This document shows, piece after piece, positions 14,480 to 64,000 of a stretch of 64,000 nucleotides of DNA. The notes below the pieces were generated by a model that did no database searches, was not told the DNA's origin, and worked only from the letters and a program-made list of their open reading frames with translations. A program made the translations under genes and the position numbers. Within the stretch, counting starts at the first letter, position 1. Each line of letters starts with the position of its first letter. The stretch is from Sipunculus nudus (lineage: Eukaryota > Annelida > Sipuncula > Golfingiida > Sipunculidae): NCBI GenBank assembly GCA_026874595.1, contig CM049315.1, positions 9,275,664 through 9,339,663 of the forward strand. The letters are read 5' to 3'.

Positions 14480-15822
14480 TACTTCTTTCTTATTCAAAGT
14501 AATTTCTTCATTATTACCTTTAATTCATGATCCTATGAATCCCCATTTAACATTTTCATAAATTAGCAGTATACCCTTTTGATATCTGACTTGTGGCATC
14601 CAGAATTTAGTCTGTACTGACATCCTACTTGTGACCTGCAGGTTTTAGTCCATACAAGAAAAGCAATGACAGCTACAGGGAGCTGTTAAAAACTTGCGAG
14701 AAATGAAGACAGCATTTGATAAAGGCAGGGAAACACTTTGAAATGGTTCATGACATTTAATTAATCTGATGTATCTTAATATAAAGGAGACAGAATAAGA
14801 GCCATCTAGATCAATACTGTTATGACTGGTAGGCATACTGGAGGTTGTTAACCTGTAGCTGGCCTAGCAGGTGCACGCTAGTTAAGAATAACAGTCACTG
14901 GTGTGGCAACCTAAAAAATACTGAATTCACTCCGAAATGGTATATCATTTCATAAAATACTACTTCTGTTTCATTTGATTCTATTTCGAGGAAACTTTTT
15001 CAAGTAAATATCTAAAAACAAGAAACATTTATTCTCCAGTTCTTTTATCTGTGAAAATGACACAAGGAAATATGAAATAAATGATAATATATATTGTGCT
15101 TCACTTTGAGTATATACTTAACACATGGGCCAACCAATGCCAAGATACACAAGAGGATGGGGGGGGGGGGAATATTAACGTTTTAAGTGACTACTGGTGA
15201 TAGACTGATACTGTGATAGTATAAGTCTGGGGATAGCTGGAGGCATCCTCTTTGGAATTCAGGGGTTATTTAGGCAGTAACCTGTTAACAACTTACATAC
15301 AATCTGCATTTCTCCATAAATGGTCTGTTACTGTTCATGTGTTACATATAGACCCACAGACAGCACACATATATACATGCACAAAGCTGTTAACAGGTGA
15401 TTCTGGAGAGCAGAGAGCAGCTGATGTACAATATAAATGTAGGGGGAAGAATTAGGATCTTGCAGAATCTTTACAGGAAGAATGAGAATCAAGAGATGAT
15501 ATGAAATGATTCCTGTTCTCCCAAGGAAAACTGAAACTACTAATTTTACTCGTTGATTCTATTCTATTCTGGGAATTATCATTATTTCCAGGGAGAGCTT
15601 GGAATTTTAAAATACAAACCTGGGGAAACCCTAGAATTTTCATTAGCTGTTTGTTGTTATTTTACAAACCTTCCATACCTATAAAAGGATATCATGTCCA
15701 ATTTGGCCCGGTTTAATTCCTGTTGTTCCTGGGAGAACCAAGAATTCTCTTTTGTCCAGGGAAAATGAAAATCAAGAGATAGTATAAATAATAGATTTTA
15801 CCAGAAAGAACGAGACTCATCA

Positions 15823-17470
15823 TTGAACAACATTATCTGGGTCATGGATCACACAGTTTGTGTCTATTTATATAAAGTGGACAACAACTTACCTGTAGTG
15901 TGATGGAACAGTTATCCAGTAGATTCAGCATGTGAACAACATTATCCAGGTCATGGATCACAAAGTTTGTGTCTAATTTTATAAAGTGGACAACTTACCT
16001 GTAGTGTGATGGAACAGTTATCCAGTAGATTCAGCATGTGAACAACATTATCCAGGTCATGGATCTAACAGTTTGTGTCTAATTTTATAAAGTGGACAAC
16101 TTACCTGTAGTGTGATGGAACAGTTATCCAGTAGATTCAGCATGTGAACAACATTATCCAGGTCATGGATCACACAGTTTGTGTCTAATTTTATAAAGTG
16201 GACAACTTACCTGTTGTGTGATGAAACAGTTATCCAGCAGATTCAGCATGTGAATAACATTATCCAGGTCATGGATCATACAGTTTGTGTCTAATTTTAT
16301 AAAGTGGACAACTTACCTGTAGTGTGATGGAACAGTTATCCAGTAGATTCAGCATGTGAACAACATTATCCAGGTCATGGATCACACAGTTTGTGTGATG
16401 GAACAGTTATCCAGTAGATTCAGCATGTGAACAACATTATCCAGGTCATGGATCAAACAGGTTGTGTCTAATTTTATAAAGTGGACAACTTACCTGTAGT
16501 GTGATGGAACAGTTATCCAGTAGATTCAGCATGTGAACAACATTATCCAGGTCATGGATCACACAGTTTGTGTGATGGAACAGTTATCCAGTAGATTCAA
16601 CATGTGAACAACATTATCCAGGTCATGGATCAAACAGGTTGTGCCTAATTTTATAAAGTGGACAACTTACCTGTAGTGTGATGGAACAGTTATCCAGTAG
16701 ATTCAGCATGTGAACATTATCCAGGACATGGATCACACAGTTTGTGTCTAATTATATAAAGTGAACAACTTACCTGTAGTGTGATGGAACAGTTATCCAG
16801 TAGATTCAGCATGTGAACAACATTATCCAGGTCATGGATCTAACAGTTTGTGTCTAATTTTATAAAGTGGACAACTTACCTGTAGTGTGATGGAACAGTT
16901 ATCCAGTAGATTCAGCATGTGAACAACATTATCCAGGTCATGGATCACACAGTTTGTGTCTAATTTTATAAAGTGGACAACTTACCTGTTGTGTGATGAA
17001 ACAGTTATCCAGCAGATTCAGCATGTGAATAACATTATCCAGGTCATGGATCACACAGTTTGTGTCTAATTTTATAAAGTGGACAACTTACCTGTAGTGT
17101 GATGGAACAGTTATCCAGTAGATTCAGCATGTGAACAACATTATCCAGGTCATGGATCACACAGTTTGTGTGATGGAACAGTTATCCAGTAGATTCAACA
17201 TGTGAACAACATTATCCAGGTCATGGATCAAACAGGTTGTGCCTAATTTTATAAAGTGGACAACTTACCTGTAGTGTGATGGAACAGTTATCCAGTAGAT
17301 TCAGCATGTGAACATTATCCAGGACATGGATCACACAGTTTGTGTCTAATTATATAAAGTGAACAACTTACCTGTAGTGTGATGGAACAGTTATCCAGTA
17401 GATTCAGCATGTGAACAACATTATCCAGGTCATGGATCTAACAGTTTGTGTCTAATTATATAAAGTGAAC
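15823..17470 (-). repeat. Exon-derived minisatellite: 106-bp units of exon 2 plus its 5' splice site
   Basis: Tandem array whose unit is 78 bp of exon 2 (codons 10-35) joined to the first 28 bp of intron 2. The plus-strand motif CTTACCTG (minus-strand CAG|GTAAG) begins at 15888, 15994, 16100, 16206, 16312, 16489, 16666, 16769, 16875, 16981, 17087, 17264 and 17367, with the true exon's at 17473. Spacings are mostly 106 bp. Three 177-bp spacings are a 106-bp unit plus a 71-bp unit that has lost a 35-bp stretch spanning the donor, apparently between short CAC-containing repeats. Two spacings of 103 bp have lost three bases. A truncated unit opens the array at 15823. All 14 donors read CAG|GTAAGT. 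The array copies differ from the true exon by shared substitutions, so they were amplified or homogenised after the first duplication. Confidence 0.93.
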
Positions 17471-17477
17471 AACTTAC

Positions 17478-17582
17478 CTGTAGTGTGATGGAACAGTTAT
17501 CCAGCAGATTCAGCATGTGAACAACATTATCCGGGTCATGGATCACAAAGTTTGTTTCCAATTCAAACTCTCCACCAACCAG
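17478..17582 (-). CDS. Neurobeachin-family exon 2 (35 codons)
   Basis: A 105-bp exon in phase 0 on both sides, read on the minus strand. It starts [14 protein letters not shown] and ends [10 protein letters not shown], matching the LVGGEFDLEMNFII...LLEHCDVTCQ segment that follows exon 1 in vertebrate neurobeachin. The acceptor is ATTCCAG| and the donor is CTACAG|GTAAGTT, identical to the U1 consensus over CAG|GTAAGT. The oddity is downstream: the last 78 bp of this exon (26 codons) plus 28 bp of intron are repeated in tandem for 1.65 kb into intron 2. This copy is taken as the real exon because only it has the acceptor and the first nine codons, and because it joins exon 1 in frame. Reading through its donor meets a TGA 16 codons later. 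Confidence 0.9.
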
Positions 17583-45472: not shown

Positions 45473-45965
45473 GTCATGACCTTTACTAGGAGAGTGTCCT
45501 TGACCTTGAATAGGTCCAATTTTGGGGAAAATCACACAAATTCTTTAATATCTCAAGAAATCTTGCATGGATTTATCCCAAAATCAAGTTGATGGAAGAT
45601 CATGGATAGGGTTGTCATGTTCCAGAAACTGGTGGCGCCACCTATTATTCTTTACTTGTTTTCATGCCGTTTAATACCCCCAAAATTGCCACCTTACAGT
45701 ACTGTGAGCATTATAAGTCAAAAACTAATGGACAGATTTCTTTTATATTATGCATATACATAGGTATGGGTTATGGGATGATGTTTATTTAAATTGGGGT
45801 CATGACCTTTCCTATGATAGTGGCCTTGACCTTGAATATTGCCATATATGGTGAAAATCACACACCTTTTATGATATCTCCAGTGTTGATAGCCATATGG
45901 ATTTCAAACATGACTTATGTATGGCCCACCACTAAAGTAAGAACCCTATAGGTTCTAGGGTCATT

Positions 45966-47140
45966 AGGTCAAAGGTCAAGGTCACTGGACTGGCATTTTA
46001 AAAGATACTGTGGATGCATTTAAAGCCAAACTTTCATCCCAGGTCTTCCATCTTGAATATATAGCTCACTTGCCAATAGTGGATGATCCATATGAATTTT
46101 GGGGTCACAAGGTCAAAGGTCAAGGCCACAGGAACTATCTGTCCAAAAATTAGTTTCTGGATGATAATTCCTGCTTTTATTGATGTATTGATTTCAAATT
46201 TGACTTATATATGTCCCATTGAAAAAGAAAAACTCCAATTGATTTTGGGGTCATGAGGTCAAAGGTCAAGGTCACAGGACACATCTTTAAAAAGATTGTG
46301 GATGCATTTTCAGCCAAACATTTCATCTCAGACCTTTCATCTTGCACATATAAGTCATCTGTCAATAGAGGAAGACCCCTATCAGTTTTGAGGTCACAAG
46401 GTCAAAGGTGAAGGTCACAGGAGCCATCTGTCCAAAAATTAGTTTCTGATGATAATTCCTGCTTTTATTGATGTATGGATTTCAAACTTGACTTGTATAT
46501 GTCCCATTGGAAAAGCAAGACCCAAATTGATTTTGGGGTCATAAGGTCAAAGGTCAAGGTCACAGGACACATCTTTAAAAAGATGTGGATGCATTTTAAG
46601 CCAAACTTTCATCCCCGGTCTTCCATCTTGAATATATAGCTCACTTGCCAATAGTGGATAATCCATATAAATTTTGGGGTCACAAGGTCAAAGGTCAAGG
46701 CCACAGGAGCTATCTGTCCAAAACTTAGTTTCTGGATGATAATTCCTTCTTTTATTGATGTATGGATTTCAAACTTGACTTGTATTTGACCCATTGGAAA
46801 AGCAAGACCCGAATTGATTTTGGGGTCATGAGGTCAAAGGTCAAGGTCACAGGAAACCTCTTTAAAAAGGTTGTGGATGCAATTTCACCCAAATAATTCA
46901 TCTCAGATCTTTCATCTTGCACATATAGTTCACCTGCTAAGAGTGGAAGACCCCTATCAATTTTGAGATCACAAGGTCAAAGGTGAAGGTCACAGGAGCC
47001 ATCTGTCCAAAAATTAGTTTCTGGATGATAATTCCTGCTTTTATTGATGTATGGATTTCAAACTTGACTTGTATATGTCCCATTGGAAAAGCAAGACCTG
47101 AATTGATTTTGGGGTCCTGAGGTCAAAGGTCAAGGTCACA
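45966..47140 (+). repeat. Internal array of about 144-bp monomers with DR1-like motifs
   Basis: Nine monomers, each with AGGTCAAAGGTCAAGGTCAC or a close variant (starts near 45966, 46109, 46256, 46396, 46545, 46686, 46830, 46973 and 47118). Two alternating types (GGGGTCATGAGG..ACAGGACAC and GAGGTCACAAGG..GGAGCCATCTGTCC) make a dimer of about 288 bp. Confidence 0.88.
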
Positions 47141-47334
47141 GGACACATCTTTAAAAAGATCAAGGTCACAGGACCAACATCTTCAACAAGATTGTGGATT
47201 GTTAGATGGAAGAAACAATAAATATGCCAAGTTTCAGTATATGCTGCTAAAAATGGGGGTCTGTTCTTAAAGGGGGGGGGGGGGCTACTATGTCTGGGGA
47301 TACTCTGGCACCTGCGGTGCCAAGAAATGTCTAG

Positions 47335-55479: not shown

Positions 55480-55600
55480 CCTGGAAATTTAGGAGCCAGG
55501 ACACCTTCGCTTAGTGGCCATGTTGGATTTGACAGTCTGCCTGATCAGCTCGTCAACAAGTCTGTTTCCCAAGGATTTTGTTTTAATATCCTGTGTGTGG
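55480..55600 (+). CDS. Septin exon 2 (start of the GTPase domain)
   Basis: 121 bp, entering in phase 0 after TTTCAG| and leaving after one base of a Gly codon at G|GTGAGT. It encodes residues 20-59: a short [13 protein letters not shown] linker, then [20 protein letters not shown] and [17 protein letters not shown] followed by a beta strand ending at the P-loop is diagnostic of the SEPT6/8/10/11 group and forms the alpha-0/N-terminal part of the septin G domain used in the NC filament interface. The match to vertebrate proteins is close to residue for residue. The downstream P-loop is split from this exon by intron 2 within its first Gly codon. Confidence 0.95.
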
Positions 55601-57117
55601 GTGAGTAACTTGTTCTGATCATCAGTTTCAGTGAGTAGTGTTTCAGATTGTTCCTTGTTTAGATGGTTATATATCCTGGTGGTATGTATATTAAATGTGG
55701 GTTCCACACAAAGTGAATTACTAGGAAGATAAATTAAGGGGAGAAAAACTATTTGTATACAATTTGTGCACTAATAAGACCCAGACATACTGTTCTAAAC
55801 CATGAAATGCCTTGAAATGTGCTGTGCATGTCATTCTTTGATTTATATTTTGTATGACCCCAGTGATGCCACATTTATTAAACATTTTTCCTCCTTTTTA
55901 TGTAGCTTAGCCTTAGAGGCTTTTTTGAGTCTGACAAAAATCAGTCATGGCTTGAGCTTAATGACCTTTATTGAGCTCGTTTCTCTTTACACTTACAGAA
56001 GCATATAGCTCCATATGGTGTACATAAACATGTAAATACAAAAGTGGTCCAGTTACTCAAAAGAATGTAGCACCATCTAGTGTACTGTCTTGTCATCCTG
56101 TTGTCTCAGCAGTCAGTAATTTCGCCCTGGACTGTCAAACATTCATGTTCTCCTGCAAAGTTTACACAAAAGTGGCAATCAGATTGTGAAAAAAACTGAA
56201 CTTTGTGAATGTTAGACCTCATTTACCTGGTAATCAATTTGTCTGTTGTCAGATGTTTGTAATCATCTGCTCACTTGACATGTATATGTGTGTGATGATA
56301 ATAGTCTTTATTTTCTTCCATAAAATGAAGATATTAATATCAGATCATATTAAAAACAAAATGCAAGAAAATACAAAAGGTTTATTTTATTATAACAAGA
56401 TGAAATGATACAAATTTAGCAAAGACCATGAATTATATGATTGGCATCTTTCTACATAATGTGGTACATTGATCACCATGTTCTTCCTAATATTATATAT
56501 AACTTATAAGACAATAAAAGTTGTAGTCTTTATTCATGTTACCCATACAACAGTAATCCATTACACATTAGTAAAGCATAAGTTTAAGTGACATTTGGAA
56601 ATGTAGAAGACCATTGATCAGAGTGACTGTGATTAACCCTAGTGTTATTGTAGGTGATGCCATATGATAAGGTCAATTAAAAAGATGGATTTTGTAGTGT
56701 ATGTTGAACAATATGCATAAATCATTGATCTATATTATGGTCTATGATCAGTATATTGACCACTCGAGAAAAAGTGACCCTTGTGCATGAATTTTAAGTT
56801 TTGTATTTTGCAATTTTTGTATTTCACAAGTTTTTCAGTTCAGTGTGGTTTTGTGATGTTTTTGTCAATTTCTTGATTTTCTTGTGATTCGCACTAATAG
56901 CAGATATATTTGCTAATTTTCTGTGGAAAATTTGTAGAGAATATATTTTTCTAACACTACATTTCTGTAGGGCTTCTGTTCTATTTATGAAGTAGAATGG
57001 GTGTAAATGCATTGCTGTGGTATGTGAAGGCTGCATTGAGTTATGTATTTGCAACTGGAGTACTGGATAAATGGGTCCAGATGGAGACATAATTGCCTGA
57101 CACTATGACCAAACACT

Positions 57118-58251: not shown

Positions 58252-60557
58252 TATTGTATCCCCAGACAAAGTCGGGGGATACTATGTTTTCATACCGGTC
58301 CCGCCGCCGCATATAAATCTTGTTGGCGCGATAACCCAAAAAATATTTCACGGAACTTTACCAAACTTGGTATATGTATTGATATGGGTAAGAGGACGAC
58401 GCCTATTTAAAATGAGGTCATGACCTATACAAGGAGAGTGTCCTTGACCTTGAATAGGTCCAATTTTGGGGAAAATCACACAAATTCTTCAATATCTCAA
58501 GAAATCTTGCATGGATTTATCCAAAAATCAAGTTGATGGAAGATCATGGATAGGGTTGTCATGTTCCAGAAACTGGTGGCGCCACCTATTATTCTTTACT
58601 TGTTTTCGTGCCGTTTAATACCCCAAAATTGCCACCTTACAGTACTGTGAGCATTATAAGTCAAAAACTAATAGACAGATTTCTTTTATATTATGCATAT
58701 ACATAGGTATAGGTTATGGGATGATGCTTATTTAAATTGGGGTCATGAACTTTCCTATGATAGTGGCCTTGACCTTGAATATTGCCATATATGGTGAAAA
58801 TCACACACCTCTTATGATATCTCCAGTGTTGATAGCCATATGGATTTCAAACATGACTTATGCATGGCCCACCACTAAAGTAAGAACCCTATAGGTTCTA
58901 GGGTCATGAGGTCAAAGGTCAAGGTCACTGGACTGGCATTTTAAAAGATACTGTGGATGCATTTTAAGCCAAACTTTCACCCCAGGTCTTCCATCTTGAA
59001 TATATAGCTCACTCGCCGATCGTGGATGATCCATATAAATTTTGGGGTCACAAGGTCAAAGGTCAAGGCCACAGGAGCTATCTGTCCAAAAATTAGTTTC
59101 TGGATGATAATTCCTGCTTTTATTGATGTAATGATTTCAAACTTGACTTGTATATGGCCCATTGAAAAAGCAAGACCCAAATTGATTTTGGGGTCATGAG
59201 GTCAAAGGTCAAGGTCACAGGACATCTTTAAAAAGATGTGGATGCATTTTCAGCTTAACATTTCATCTCAGATCTTTCATCTTGGACATATAGTTCACCT
59301 GCCAAGAGAGTAAGACCCCTATCAATTTTGAGGTCACAAGGTCAAAGGTGAAGGTCACAGGAGCCATCTGTCCAAAAATTAGTTTCTGGATGATAATTCC
59401 TTCTTTTATTGATGTAATGATTTCAAACTTGACTTGTGATATGTCCCATTGAAAAAGCAAGACCCAAATTGATTTTGGGGTCATGAGGTCAAAGGTCAAG
59501 GTCACAGGACATCTTTAAAAAGATGTGGATGCATTTTCAGCCAAACATTTCATCTCAGATCTTTCATCTTGCACATATAGTTCACCTGCCAAGAGAGGAA
59601 GAACCCTATCAATTTTGAGGTCACAAGGTCAAAGGTGAAGGTCACAGGAGCCATCTGTCCAAAAATTAGTTTCTGAAGATAATTCCTTCTTTTATTGATG
59701 TATGGATTTCAAACTTTGCTTTGTTATTGACCCATTAGAAAAACAAGACCGCAATTTGATTTTGGGGTCATGAGGTCAAAGGTCAAGGTCACAGGCAACC
59801 TCTTAAAAAAGATTGTGGATGCATTTTCAGCCAAACAATTAATCTCAGATCTTTCATCTTTCACATGTAGTTCACCTGCCAAGAGTGGGAGACCCCTATC
59901 AGTTTTGAGGTCACAAGGTCAAAGGTGAAGGTCACAGGAGCCATATGTCCAAAAATTAGTTTCTGGATGATAATTCCTGCTTTTATTGATGTATGGATTT
60001 CAAACTTGTCTTGTATATGTCCCATTGGAAAAGTAAGACCAAAATTGATTGTGGGGTCATGGGGTCAAATGTCAAGGTCACAGGACACATCTTTAAAAAG
60101 ATTTGGATGCATTTTCAGCCAAACATTTAATCTCAGATCTTTCATCTTGCACATATAGTTCTCCTGCCAGAGAGGAAGAACACTTTCAATTTTGAGGTCA
60201 CAAGGTCAAAGGTGAAGGTCACAGGAGCCATCTGTCCAAAAATAAGTTTCTGGATGATAATTCCTGCTTTATTGATGTATAGATTTCAAACTTGACTTGC
60301 ATATTTCCCATTGGAAAAGCAAGACCCAAATTGATTTTGGGGTTATGAGGTCAAAGGTCAAGGTCACAGGACACATCTTTAAAAAGATCAAGGTCACAGG
60401 ACCAACATCTTCAACAAGATTGTGGATTGTTAGATTGAAGAAACAATAAATATGCCAAGTGTCAGTATATGCTGCTAAAAGTGGGGGTCTGTTCTTGTAG
60501 GGGGGGCCTACTATGTCTGGGGATACTCTGGCACCTGCGGTGCCAAGAAATGTCTAG
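58252..60557 (+). mobile_element. Helitron-like non-autonomous element, copy 2
   Basis: Same ends as copy 1 (TATTGTATCCCCAGACAAAG; GGCACC-TGC-GGTGCC hairpin, nine bases, CTAG at 60554-60557, then TT). It is not interrupted by the hAT element and has eleven internal monomers with the AGGTCAAAGGTCA motif between about 58908 and 60365. One monomer (near 60064) is degenerate. GGTGGCGCCACC at 58575-58586. Confidence 0.78.
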
Positions 60558-61207: not shown

Positions 61208-61321
61208 GAGAGACTGGGCTTGGGAAGTCCACCTTAATGGACACCTTATTCAACACAAATTTTGATTCAACTCAAAGTACACATGACCTGCCAGGAGTCA
61301 AGCTCAAGTCTCACACTTATG
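61208..61321 (+). CDS. Septin exon 3 (P-loop and switch I)
   Basis: 114 bp, phase 1 in and phase 1 out (TATG|GTAAGA). Residues 60-97. The P-loop GETGLGKST (residues 60-68) matches GxxxxGKS/T and binds the GTP phosphates. [10 protein letters not shown] follows, then the switch I segment ending GVKLKSHTY. By hand alignment the position of the catalytic switch I threonine of SEPT2 (Thr78) is occupied by Gly in the PGVKLK stretch, as in the other group 6 septins, so this subunit is probably not a GTPase. The last 19 bp of the exon (from 61303) and its donor are the first unit of a tandem array in intron 3. Reading through the donor meets a TAA at the second array copy. Confidence 0.95.
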
Positions 61322-61602
61322 GTAAGATTACTCTAACTCAAGTCTCACACTTATGGTAAGATTACTGTAACTTAGTCTCACACTTATGGTAATATTACTC
61401 TAACTCAAGTCTCACACTAATGGTAAGATTACTGTAACTCATTCTCACACTTATGGTAATATTACTCTAACTCAAGTCTCACACTTATTGTAAGATTACT
61501 GTAACTCAGTCTCACACTTATGGTAATATTATCCTAACTCAAGTCTCACACTTATGGTAAGATTACTCTTTACTCAAGTCTCACACTTATGGTAAGATTA
61601 CT
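61303..61602 (+). repeat. Exon-derived minisatellite: about 34-bp units of septin exon 3 end plus its 5' splice site
   Basis: Nine tandem copies of a 33-36-bp unit, the first being the real exon end and donor. Each unit carries the exon motif TCTCACACTTATG, then GTAAGATTACT or GTAATATTACT. Copies 1, 2, 4, 8 and 9 keep ATG|GTAAGA (copy 4 has AATG); copies 3, 5 and 7 read ATG|GTAATA; copy 6 reads ATT|GTAAGA. The alternation of GTAAGA and GTAATA forms in copies 2-7 indicates amplification of a two-unit (about 67-bp) block. The array stops at about 61602, after which intron 3 looks unique. Confidence 0.93.
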
Positions 61603-62133: not shown

Positions 62134-62215
62134 AGCTGCAGGAAAGCAATGTGCGCTTAAAGCTGACTATCGTTGACACTGTTGGCTTCGGAGACCAGAT
62201 TGATAAAACAGATAG
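62134..62215 (+). CDS. Septin exon 4 (G3 motif)
   Basis: 82 bp, entering in phase 1 and leaving after two bases of a Ser codon at AG|GTATGA. Residues 98-124: [14 protein letters not shown], then [17 protein letters not shown] (residues 112-115) is the G3 (DxxG) motif that contacts the gamma-phosphate and Mg2+. [23 protein letters not shown] is nearly invariant in vertebrate SEPT6-group proteins, which makes this the firmest family assignment in the window. The Asp is present, whereas some group members have Ser here. Confidence 0.96.
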
Positions 62216-62729
62216 GTATGAAACCTTTGTTTAGTTCTCTGTGCTTTAGTATTAATTTATTTAGCTTTAATTTATATTTACCTTCTACAAGACCAAAGGT
62301 AAATTTTCACAAAATGTGGTTGTATAAAGGAGCTGACCAAGTTTTTTTTAAAGGTGATTACAACATTTTTTCAGATAGATGGTGTAGCTTGATTCCTGAA
62401 ATGAAATAATGGCATGTATTTCATGAAATGTGAATCCAAAGGCCTGTGCAAAGGTACACTCTAATGCATAGTTAACTACAATGACCTGCATATAATTTAT
62501 AGAAACTTGAAATCCAGAAGCATTTGTAATAACACATTAACTGTCAACAGAAATCCTGAGGTAAAGAAAAGATGGATTTTGGCTCATTTATCATCATTAT
62601 TTTTTATTTAAAATGACTGAATAAGCGTTTAGTACTTTAGAACTTGGAAGTTTCTTTATGCTCATGATATCTTTATTCCCTTGTAATCAATAGTTATGAA
62701 GTCTCCATATTTATTGGTTTTGTGTGCAG
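62216..62729 (+). other. Septin intron 4 (0.51 kb)
   Basis: GTATGA to GTGTGCAG. Unique AT-rich sequence; nothing else seen. Confidence 0.9.
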
Positions 62730-62870
62730 TGCCAAGCCCATTGTTGACTACATTGATGCTCAGTTTGAGAGCTACCTCCAGGAAGAACTCAAGGTCAAGA
62801 GGTCAATCCACAACTACCATGACACCAGGGTGCATGCCTGCCTCTATTTCGTTGCCCCCACCGGTCACTC
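62730..62870 (+). CDS. Septin exon 5
   Basis: 141 bp; its first base completes Ser125, and it ends after two bases of a Ser codon at TC|GTATGT. Residues 126-171: [26 protein letters not shown], then [20 protein letters not shown]. This is the alpha-2/beta-4 part of the septin G domain, where YLQEEL..KRS, DTR(V/I)H and CLYF(V/I)APTGH are family signatures. The Ser completed at its 3' border corresponds to GHS before LKSLDL in vertebrate proteins. The following exon, which should encode the AKAD guanine-specificity motif, was not found before the right edge. Confidence 0.95.
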
Positions 62871-64000
62871 GTATGTACTTCAATACTGCCATTTTCAGTG
62901 CAACACTATCTTTAATGTGGCTGCATGTTTATCTTCATATTTATTAATGAGAGCATTAATGAATTAATCCATGAAAGATTTATTCTAGAAAATAGAGTAC
63001 ATAAGAATTACACACATATTTGCACTATTTTAAGGAATGGATTTTAGCTCAGTTGACTGTAAGTCTATCTGAGCTATTGTGAATGTCCTTTGTCTGTCGT
63101 CCAGCCGGCCTTCCGTCTGTTAACAGGGCACATTTTGGAACCGTTGGACCTTAGGAAATTCAACAAGTTTTCCTACCAAACCAAAACTGGGTCACAGTGA
63201 CTTCATTTCTTTGAGAAATTAAGGAAGAAGCTCCATTTTCCATAAAAATCCTGATATTAACCTAACTGGTGTTGTGTTGTTCCTATTTGGCATTACTATT
63301 CCTCTATATGTTTCCTGTGTAAATCAGGGCTCGCCCTGCATCCCAAAAATTGTTAGCCAAAAGTTAAGCCTAAAGGAGCTTTCTTTAGCCATTTCAGAAA
63401 CACTTTAGCCAGTACTTAATCTCTGAATAATGGGAAATATTGATATTTAGCACTGAGCAAAATTCAAAATATCATGAATTGATCATATCATAACAATATA
63501 CATATGAATATTAAAAGATGGTTGGACAGTGCAATTCATGATTATTCTGTGTGACTCTGCATTGAACATTAAGTTATATATATAATCACTATAATTAAAT
63601 CAACTGAAGACCAGTCTTTCTAAAAAAAACTTTTATTTCACAATATTATAATCTCTTGTTTTGTTCATTCAGTAAGGCCTAAAAAATGTTCTTTGTTTCC
63701 AGTATCCAGACTAACTCCAAGAAAACCTAGCCATTCTAAAATTAAAATTAAAATTAAATAAAAGCCTTTGGCCATTGGGCACAAAAAGGTCGCTTCATAA
63801 ATCTTGTACAAGTCACAAATAATTGAAATTACAGCTAATTATATCACAGTAATGATTAAGTTACACATTCTATGATCTTAGGCATACATTATGTATAAAT
63901 GTGTAAGAGATACAGTGTGCATATTTATGCAGGAGATCATTTGATTACCATGTACCAGCCTTCTTTAGTCAGGGTGGTGGTAATATTGCAACCTGGTTTC
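62871..64000 (+). other. Septin intron 5 (partial)
   Basis: Starts GTATGTACTT. It contains a family A repeat at 63045-63310 and AT-rich sequence. No exon with a LKSLDL-type sequence was seen. Confidence 0.75.
63045..63310 (+). repeat. Family A-type element, copy 6 (partial)
   Basis: TTTTAGCTCAGTTGACTGTA start, GTCTGTCGTCC block, TTTTGGAACCGTTGGACC and CTACCAAACCAAAACTGGGT as in copies 3 and 4, diverged. The right end fades by about 63310. Confidence 0.65.

Follow-up and report, generated by a model that had tools for sequence, protein, structure and literature searches.

Donor-anchored minisatellites in a septin gene and at other 5' splice sites of the Sipunculus nudus genome

A minisatellite providing multiple splice donor sites was reportedly described in the human IFI6 gene (6-16, G1P3) by Turri, Cuin and Porter in 1995. 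According to the portion of PMC4526556 available, two downstream repeat units of IFI6 serve as donor sites. Human segmental-duplication genes also have variable internal tandem repeats at their exon-intron boundaries, with units of about 30 bp in about four copies that alter introns, as described in the accessible part of PMC2812944. Tandem duplication of an AGGT segment is a further route by which splice signals are copied, in that case leading to intron gain (Rogers; Hellsten; potato RdRp), and the part of PMC4974935 at hand cites a fission-yeast case with several 24-bp copies. Minisatellites occur in introns of earthworm metallothionein genes (PMC12783039), and a 150-bp repeat in one or two copies lies at the 5' end of an intron in sea bream (PMC3045353); exon-derived donor copies are not described in the available portions of these two sources. 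No report of donor-anchored arrays as a genome-wide class was recognised from titles and the first lines of abstracts among the open-licence papers listed in searches on donor or intron repeats.

The window analysed here is a stretch of 64,000 nucleotides from Sipunculus nudus (assembly GCA_026874595.1, contig CM049315.1, positions 9,275,664 to 9,339,663 of the forward strand). De novo exon finding, with a training set of 1,024 codons, did not separate exons (the septin exon scored 0.47), and the exons of the window were instead placed by tblastn, using a SEPT6 sequence as query. The features are as follows, in window coordinates.

61208 to 61321, plus strand: septin exon (exon 3 of the original prediction), the last 19 bp of which are repeated; tblastn with the SEPT6 query and gapless junction alignment to septin structures.
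61303 to 61602, plus strand: minisatellite of nine units of 33-35 bp, each made of exon tail, 5' splice site and intron start; TRF and unit map.
61322 to 61327, plus strand: putative authentic donor GTAAGA, first of nine; the sole donor that keeps the frame into the next exon without a stop.
61356 to 61597, plus strand: eight extra donors, five GTAAGA (one with T before GT) and three GTAATA; unit map and donor scoring.
62134 to 62216, plus strand: next septin exon, predicted to be joined to donor 1; frame test, alignment and tblastn.
55492 to 55605, plus strand: earlier septin exon, no array at either end; tblastn, no TRF row.
62728 to 62871, plus strand: later septin exon, no array at either end; tblastn, no TRF row.
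17478 to 17582, minus strand: neurobeachin exon, the end of which seeds an array; tblastn and Pfam Neurobeachin (E 0.016).
15813 to 17563, minus strand: donor-anchored minisatellite of the neurobeachin gene, 106-bp units and shorter ones; TRF, CAGGTAAGT in 13 copies.

TRF detected the septin repeat with a period of 34, 8.9 copies and a score of 479, which places it within the definition of a minisatellite (several copies of a unit of roughly 10-100 bp), and gave an alternative reading as 67-bp dimers with a score of 504. The unit map resolved nine units, each consisting of the last 19 bp of the exon and a GT donor, with the donor G at 61322, 61356, 61389, 61423, 61456, 61490, 61523, 61557 and 61592. 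Since the resulting spacings (34, 33, 34, 33, 34, 33, 34 and 35) alternate between 34 and 33 and end in 34, 35, the array is likely to have grown partly in dimers, and the differences among the copies follow an ordered dimer pattern. Because conserved residues of septins are encoded there, the exon end was probably the source from which the copies were derived. Two tandem arrays with units of 287-289 bp and a similar consensus were also detected by TRF elsewhere in the window, at 45896-47160 and 58901-60388.

When donor 1 was spliced to the exon at 62134, the resulting peptide aligned gaplessly to septin 2/6/11-type structures (best E 4.9e-30), and the first unit is the genuine end of the exon. 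No other donor yielded a septin, as splicing from each of donors 2-9 led to a premature stop in the frame test, and read-through from the exon met a TAA at the donor of the second copy. The nine repeats of about 34 bp, the identity of the first unit with the real exon end and the read-through stop had all been proposed from the letters of the DNA, and each was borne out. Frame and homology point to donor 1 as the donor that is probably used.

Like the IFI6 repeat, which has a short unit, the septin repeat starts at an exon's donor end, and each of its units carries a donor. The downstream donors of IFI6, however, are used and give isoforms, as far as the available part of PMC4526556 goes, whereas septin donors 2-9 all lead to a stop; moreover, IFI6 is one gene, whereas many genes are affected in the S. 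nudus genome. IFI6 is the nearest precedent, in a single gene, and we do not file the septin array as a member of the IFI6-type multi-donor class, as its downstream donors are not predicted to give in-frame isoforms. The repeats of PMC2812944 resemble the septin array in placing minisatellite-sized units at exon-intron boundaries, but they belong to recent primate paralogs and are tied to intron formation and isoforms, and that paper, in its accessible part, does not claim donor arrays derived from the exons of ordinary conserved genes. AGGT-based intron gain likewise starts from a short tandem duplication in which splice signals are copied; as described in the part of PMC4974935 at hand it creates a new intron inside an exon, whereas the septin copies sit in an existing intron and no new one was made, the septin exon junction being collinear with septins of other animals.

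A second array of like plan had been proposed for the neurobeachin gene as an independent case, and TRF and unit reading confirmed both arrays, which are independent of each other. The neurobeachin array consists of 106-bp units mixed with shorter units that do not have the donor part, and all 13 further donor-bearing copies counted carry a perfect CAGGTAAGT. A search of the neurobeachin exon against the PDB gave no match at E up to 1.

The septin and neurobeachin arrays are not the only two cases, as further donor-anchored arrays were confirmed in other genes. The genome (1.43 Gb) was searched for triple occurrences of a donor word at spacings of 30-60 bp, and in each array sampled the sequence beside the first copy was read. 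Among the matches listed, CAGGTAAGT gave 15 arrays, AAGGTAAGT nine and CAGGTGAGT 20, of which 18 were taken into the sample of 42; C5:16203712 and C6:21869540 were left out, being of the same dispersed family as L067 and L068. Twenty of the 42 arrays among the matches listed begin at an apparent coding exon end (L006-L010, L016-L019, L025-L027, L059, L061, L062, L064, L066 and L070-L072), these exon calls being for the most part visual and unblinded. In 18 of the 20 a TRF row covers the first donor; the exceptions, L070 and L072, were counted as exonic by eye. Five arrays whose start was not reached or resolved (L021, L022, L028, L063 and L073) were scored as not exonic, L118 and L143, which extend L028, remaining within the array; so were L060 and L069, where an exon lies nearby but away from the array start, and the doubtful L065. 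The very start of L073 (1-140), where there is little upstream sequence, may hold a further exon-anchored donor array. The dispersed family is itself a 30-bp minisatellite in which an acceptor-like TTACAG is joined straight to GTGAGT, like a zero-length exon, and it was seen at four sites, L067, L068 and the two left out.

Exon identity has database support in nine of the 42 donor-word arrays among the matches listed. The Pfam scan, which took in 30 of the 42 flanks, matched ABC_membrane in L008 (4.5e-6), 3HCDH_N in L010 (9e-6), thioredoxin in L019 (5.3e-11), ASXH in L027 (1.3e-3), LRR in L061 (5e-12), Kunitz in L062 (9.5e-20), M1 peptidase in L064 (4e-11) and Tfb2 in L071 (1.3e-10), and XPD was matched in L016 (3e-8). 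L007 (PH, 0.023), L018 (DNA-PKcs, 0.13) and L006, which had no match in the PDB, were counted by eye only, and a Uteroglobin match of L072 (E 0.008) was not taken as support. By comparison, none of ten arrays of the reversed word TGAATGGAC lay at a coding exon end as judged by eye, and the Pfam scan of the seven flanks long enough gave no match at E up to 0.1. The exon-end share thus differs between donor-word and reversed-word arrays (20/42 vs 0/10, p 0.008), while the database-supported cases alone do not reach significance (9/42 vs 0/10, p 0.18). Over the whole genome, triple matches of the donor word and its reverse numbered 407 and 164 for CAGGTAAGT, 374 and 70 for AAGGTAAGT and 562 and 117 for CAGGTGAGT. 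Because a few large arrays sway such triple counts, distinct arrays were compared instead, and in C1-C4 these numbered 14 for CAGGTAAGT vs five for the reversed word (p 0.07).

Exons chosen by homology are freer of bias than arrays chosen by a word. A septin family search outside the window gave 21 septin exons, some of which could be terminal exons and so lack a donor; ten more rows, long open frames on C9, were left out. TRF placed donor arrays starting within the exon end at two of the 21, namely L140 (...SHRLKKTVQ followed by GTAAGT, at least 12 copies with a period of 45 bp, Pfam Septin 1.3e-5) and L142 (...RPVSSK followed by GTAAGT, 37-bp period, 6.4 copies, Pfam Septin 1.1e-14). Around the same exons TRF found no array overlapping an exon start (0/21), a difference between donors and acceptors that is not significant (2/21 vs 0/21, p 0.49). 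Two of the six exons found within the window carry donor arrays, though it was for these that the window had been chosen.

The word CAGGTAAGT was also read along C1, with 40 isolated words and three cluster 5' flanks in 0-6.56 Mb and the next 20 isolated words up to 8.17 Mb. By eye, 11 of the 60 isolated words were clear coding donors. Four exon-anchored arrays with this word lie in C1:0-6.56 Mb, at exons of a TPR protein (L115, 5e-9, where the repeat reaches just 3 bp into the exon), an SRPK-like kinase (L116, 7.8e-13), an ARF-like GTPase of the Arf family (L129, 1.6e-12) and L128, an exon that we take to be cullin-like and that had no PDB match at E up to 1. The third cluster (L117) lies, by eye, away from any coding exon, and TRF at the 20 later isolated words found no array at a donor. 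The 53-bp unit of L128 recurs at C1:1784198 and C1:1777139, 9 and 16 kb further on, so that a unit from one exon end (L085, L086, L087 and L128) is found at three sites over 16.5 kb, with donors mostly weakened in the copies read.

Acceptors were surveyed with words of their own. The broad acceptor pattern TTTTNCAG was unusable, with 2,810 matches vs 3,521 for its reverse and the matches listed covering the first 8.5 Mb. For TTTTACAGG, none of the eight arrays among the matches listed was exonic on its 3' side, L042, the 3' end of which was not reached, being scored as not exonic. TTTTGCAGG gave 11 arrays genome-wide, of which ten were taken, the eleventh being the L025 array read on its opposite strand, and three were exonic: L047 (USP39, 8.1e-16), L051 (guanylyl cyclase receptor, 1.4e-6) and, weakly, L049 (C2-like, 0.54). 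Their plan is the mirror image of that of the donor arrays, with the real exon start in the last unit, so that splicing has to pass over several AG copies upstream of it in each. The Pfam scan took in ten of the 18 acceptor-word flanks and gave a single, chance-level match (L043, E 0.084). At L055 a 36-bp array adjoins the apparent acceptor of a last coding exon without exon sequence. Among the matches listed, exonic arrays made up 3/18 for acceptor words vs 20/42 for donor words (p 0.04), the words not being equally informative, and whole-genome triple matches of word and reverse were 373 and 68 for TTTTACAGG and 33 and 34 for TTTTGCAGG. Acceptor arrays thus look rarer than donor arrays, and donors look favoured without being the exclusive site.

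The observed donor arrays were set against uniform seeding, with the density of background arrays taken from about 135 kb of the window and other loci. With units of up to 150 bp, and 133 kb in the first count, about 0.3% of sites would be spanned by a seed unit. For the 21 septin donors 0.06 arrays were expected and two seen (P 0.002, with L128 and L129 outside the background); with L128 and L129 in the background the expectation was 0.07 (P 0.0025), and with units of up to 500 bp included it was 0.28 (P 0.03). The count used 13 exact-word donors, 34 donors in all, and a recount gave 12 clear ones. By the word route, eight exonic arrays for about 1,086 real donor words in C1-C4 were compared with 11 arrays for about 6,900 other words, a ratio of 4.6 (p 0.002), where 25% of 15,332 words were taken as real and scaled to 28% of the genome; assuming 20-40% real donor words, the ratio ran from 6.0 to 2.6 (p 0.0005-0.036). 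Donors thus seem enriched over uniform seeding, with small numbers and most exon calls made by eye.

The reading that we regard as probable is that of a donor-anchored minisatellite, in which a stretch of about 34 bp across the exon-intron boundary (19 bp of exon, 15 bp of intron) would have been tandemly duplicated. Slippage or unequal exchange would then have expanded the copies into the intron, in part as dimers of 67 bp. The spliceosome would take the 5'-most donor, so that the further copies would leave with the intron and the protein would be unchanged, while leakage to any later septin donor would lead to a premature stop and presumably to decay of the transcript. The same process may have acted at many other 5' splice sites of the genome. 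An assembly artefact or chance repeat is scarcely credible in view of the TRF scores (479-504), the ordered dimer pattern and the similar arrays at independent loci. It is also very unlikely that the extra donors are decoys or poison sites that tune septin output via nonsense-mediated decay, or added U1 sites. Such a function would suit the stop behind each of the eight later septin donors, and four septin copies and all 13 neurobeachin copies match the first donor's score. However, among seven arrays not found by the triple-word search, donor positions were less variable than their flanks in three and more variable in four, and are thus no more conserved (in eight reversed-word arrays the word was less variable in six, as expected from the mode of finding). 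In addition, the true donor of the cullin-like array is GTAAGT, whereas ten of the 11 copies read have the weaker GTTAGT, the genes and unit lengths are unrelated, and the RNA fold of the septin array was no better than shuffles (z 0.67). A looser conservation count (0.072 vs 0.107 mismatches) was set aside, as indels had misaligned the flanks. To judge from the letters of the copies, their pattern fits neutral drift and lends no support to a decoy function.

Why donors should carry such arrays is a separate matter, on which the original prediction offered a duplication-favouring process or a general tolerance, and both options stay alive. Under bare tolerance, arrays would arise everywhere at an equal rate and those at donors would merely be harmless, an explanation that is plausible yet to which we give somewhat less than even weight. 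Arrays are indeed common in the non-coding DNA of this genome, and the 11 other-word arrays in C1-C4 comprise six of non-donor CAGGTAAGT and five of the reversed word, similar counts at similar word numbers. The exon share of the unit also varies widely, from 0.05 to 0.94 with a median of 0.68 (in the 25 of 28 arrays with a TRF row spanning the first donor), a spread that speaks against a cut fixed at the splice site. Because donors seem enriched over uniform seeding in both small tests, however, plain tolerance may not suffice, and since tolerance by itself cannot lift donors above the rate of neutral DNA, an additional factor is suggested, be it local mutability, exon-like composition or genic location. 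Donor-specific mutability, by which splice-site DNA would be duplicated more often, for instance through co-transcriptional R-loops or a stalled polymerase, would account for this excess and for the scarcity of acceptor arrays. It is nevertheless rather unlikely, as exon composition or genic location could give an equal excess, TTTTACAGG exceeds its reverse in triple matches, and acceptor-anchored arrays exist at the USP39 and guanylyl cyclase receptor exons. The donor excess favours more than bare tolerance, but a process of the kind originally envisaged is not exclusive to 5' splice sites because acceptors too anchor arrays, in mirror image (L047 and L051, and L049 weakly).

A bolder extension of the donor-anchored reading, which we hold to be doubtful, is that the 5' splice sites of this genome act as hotspots for tandem duplication and that perhaps several percent of introns start with an exon-end minisatellite, with up to dozens of near-identical donors of which the 5'-most is still used. 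Choice among identical neighbouring donors is usually studied with artificial constructs. If the hotspot reading were true, the genome would put the rule of the winning first donor to the test in a natural experiment on a mass scale, and arrays at several percent of introns would supply numerous natural cases in which to examine how the spliceosome selects one of several identical adjacent donors. At that frequency they would also illustrate how exon sequence feeds into introns and a possible purging of acceptor arrays. In such genomes, donor-anchored arrays would, furthermore, mislead the prediction of genes and the analysis of splicing from short reads.
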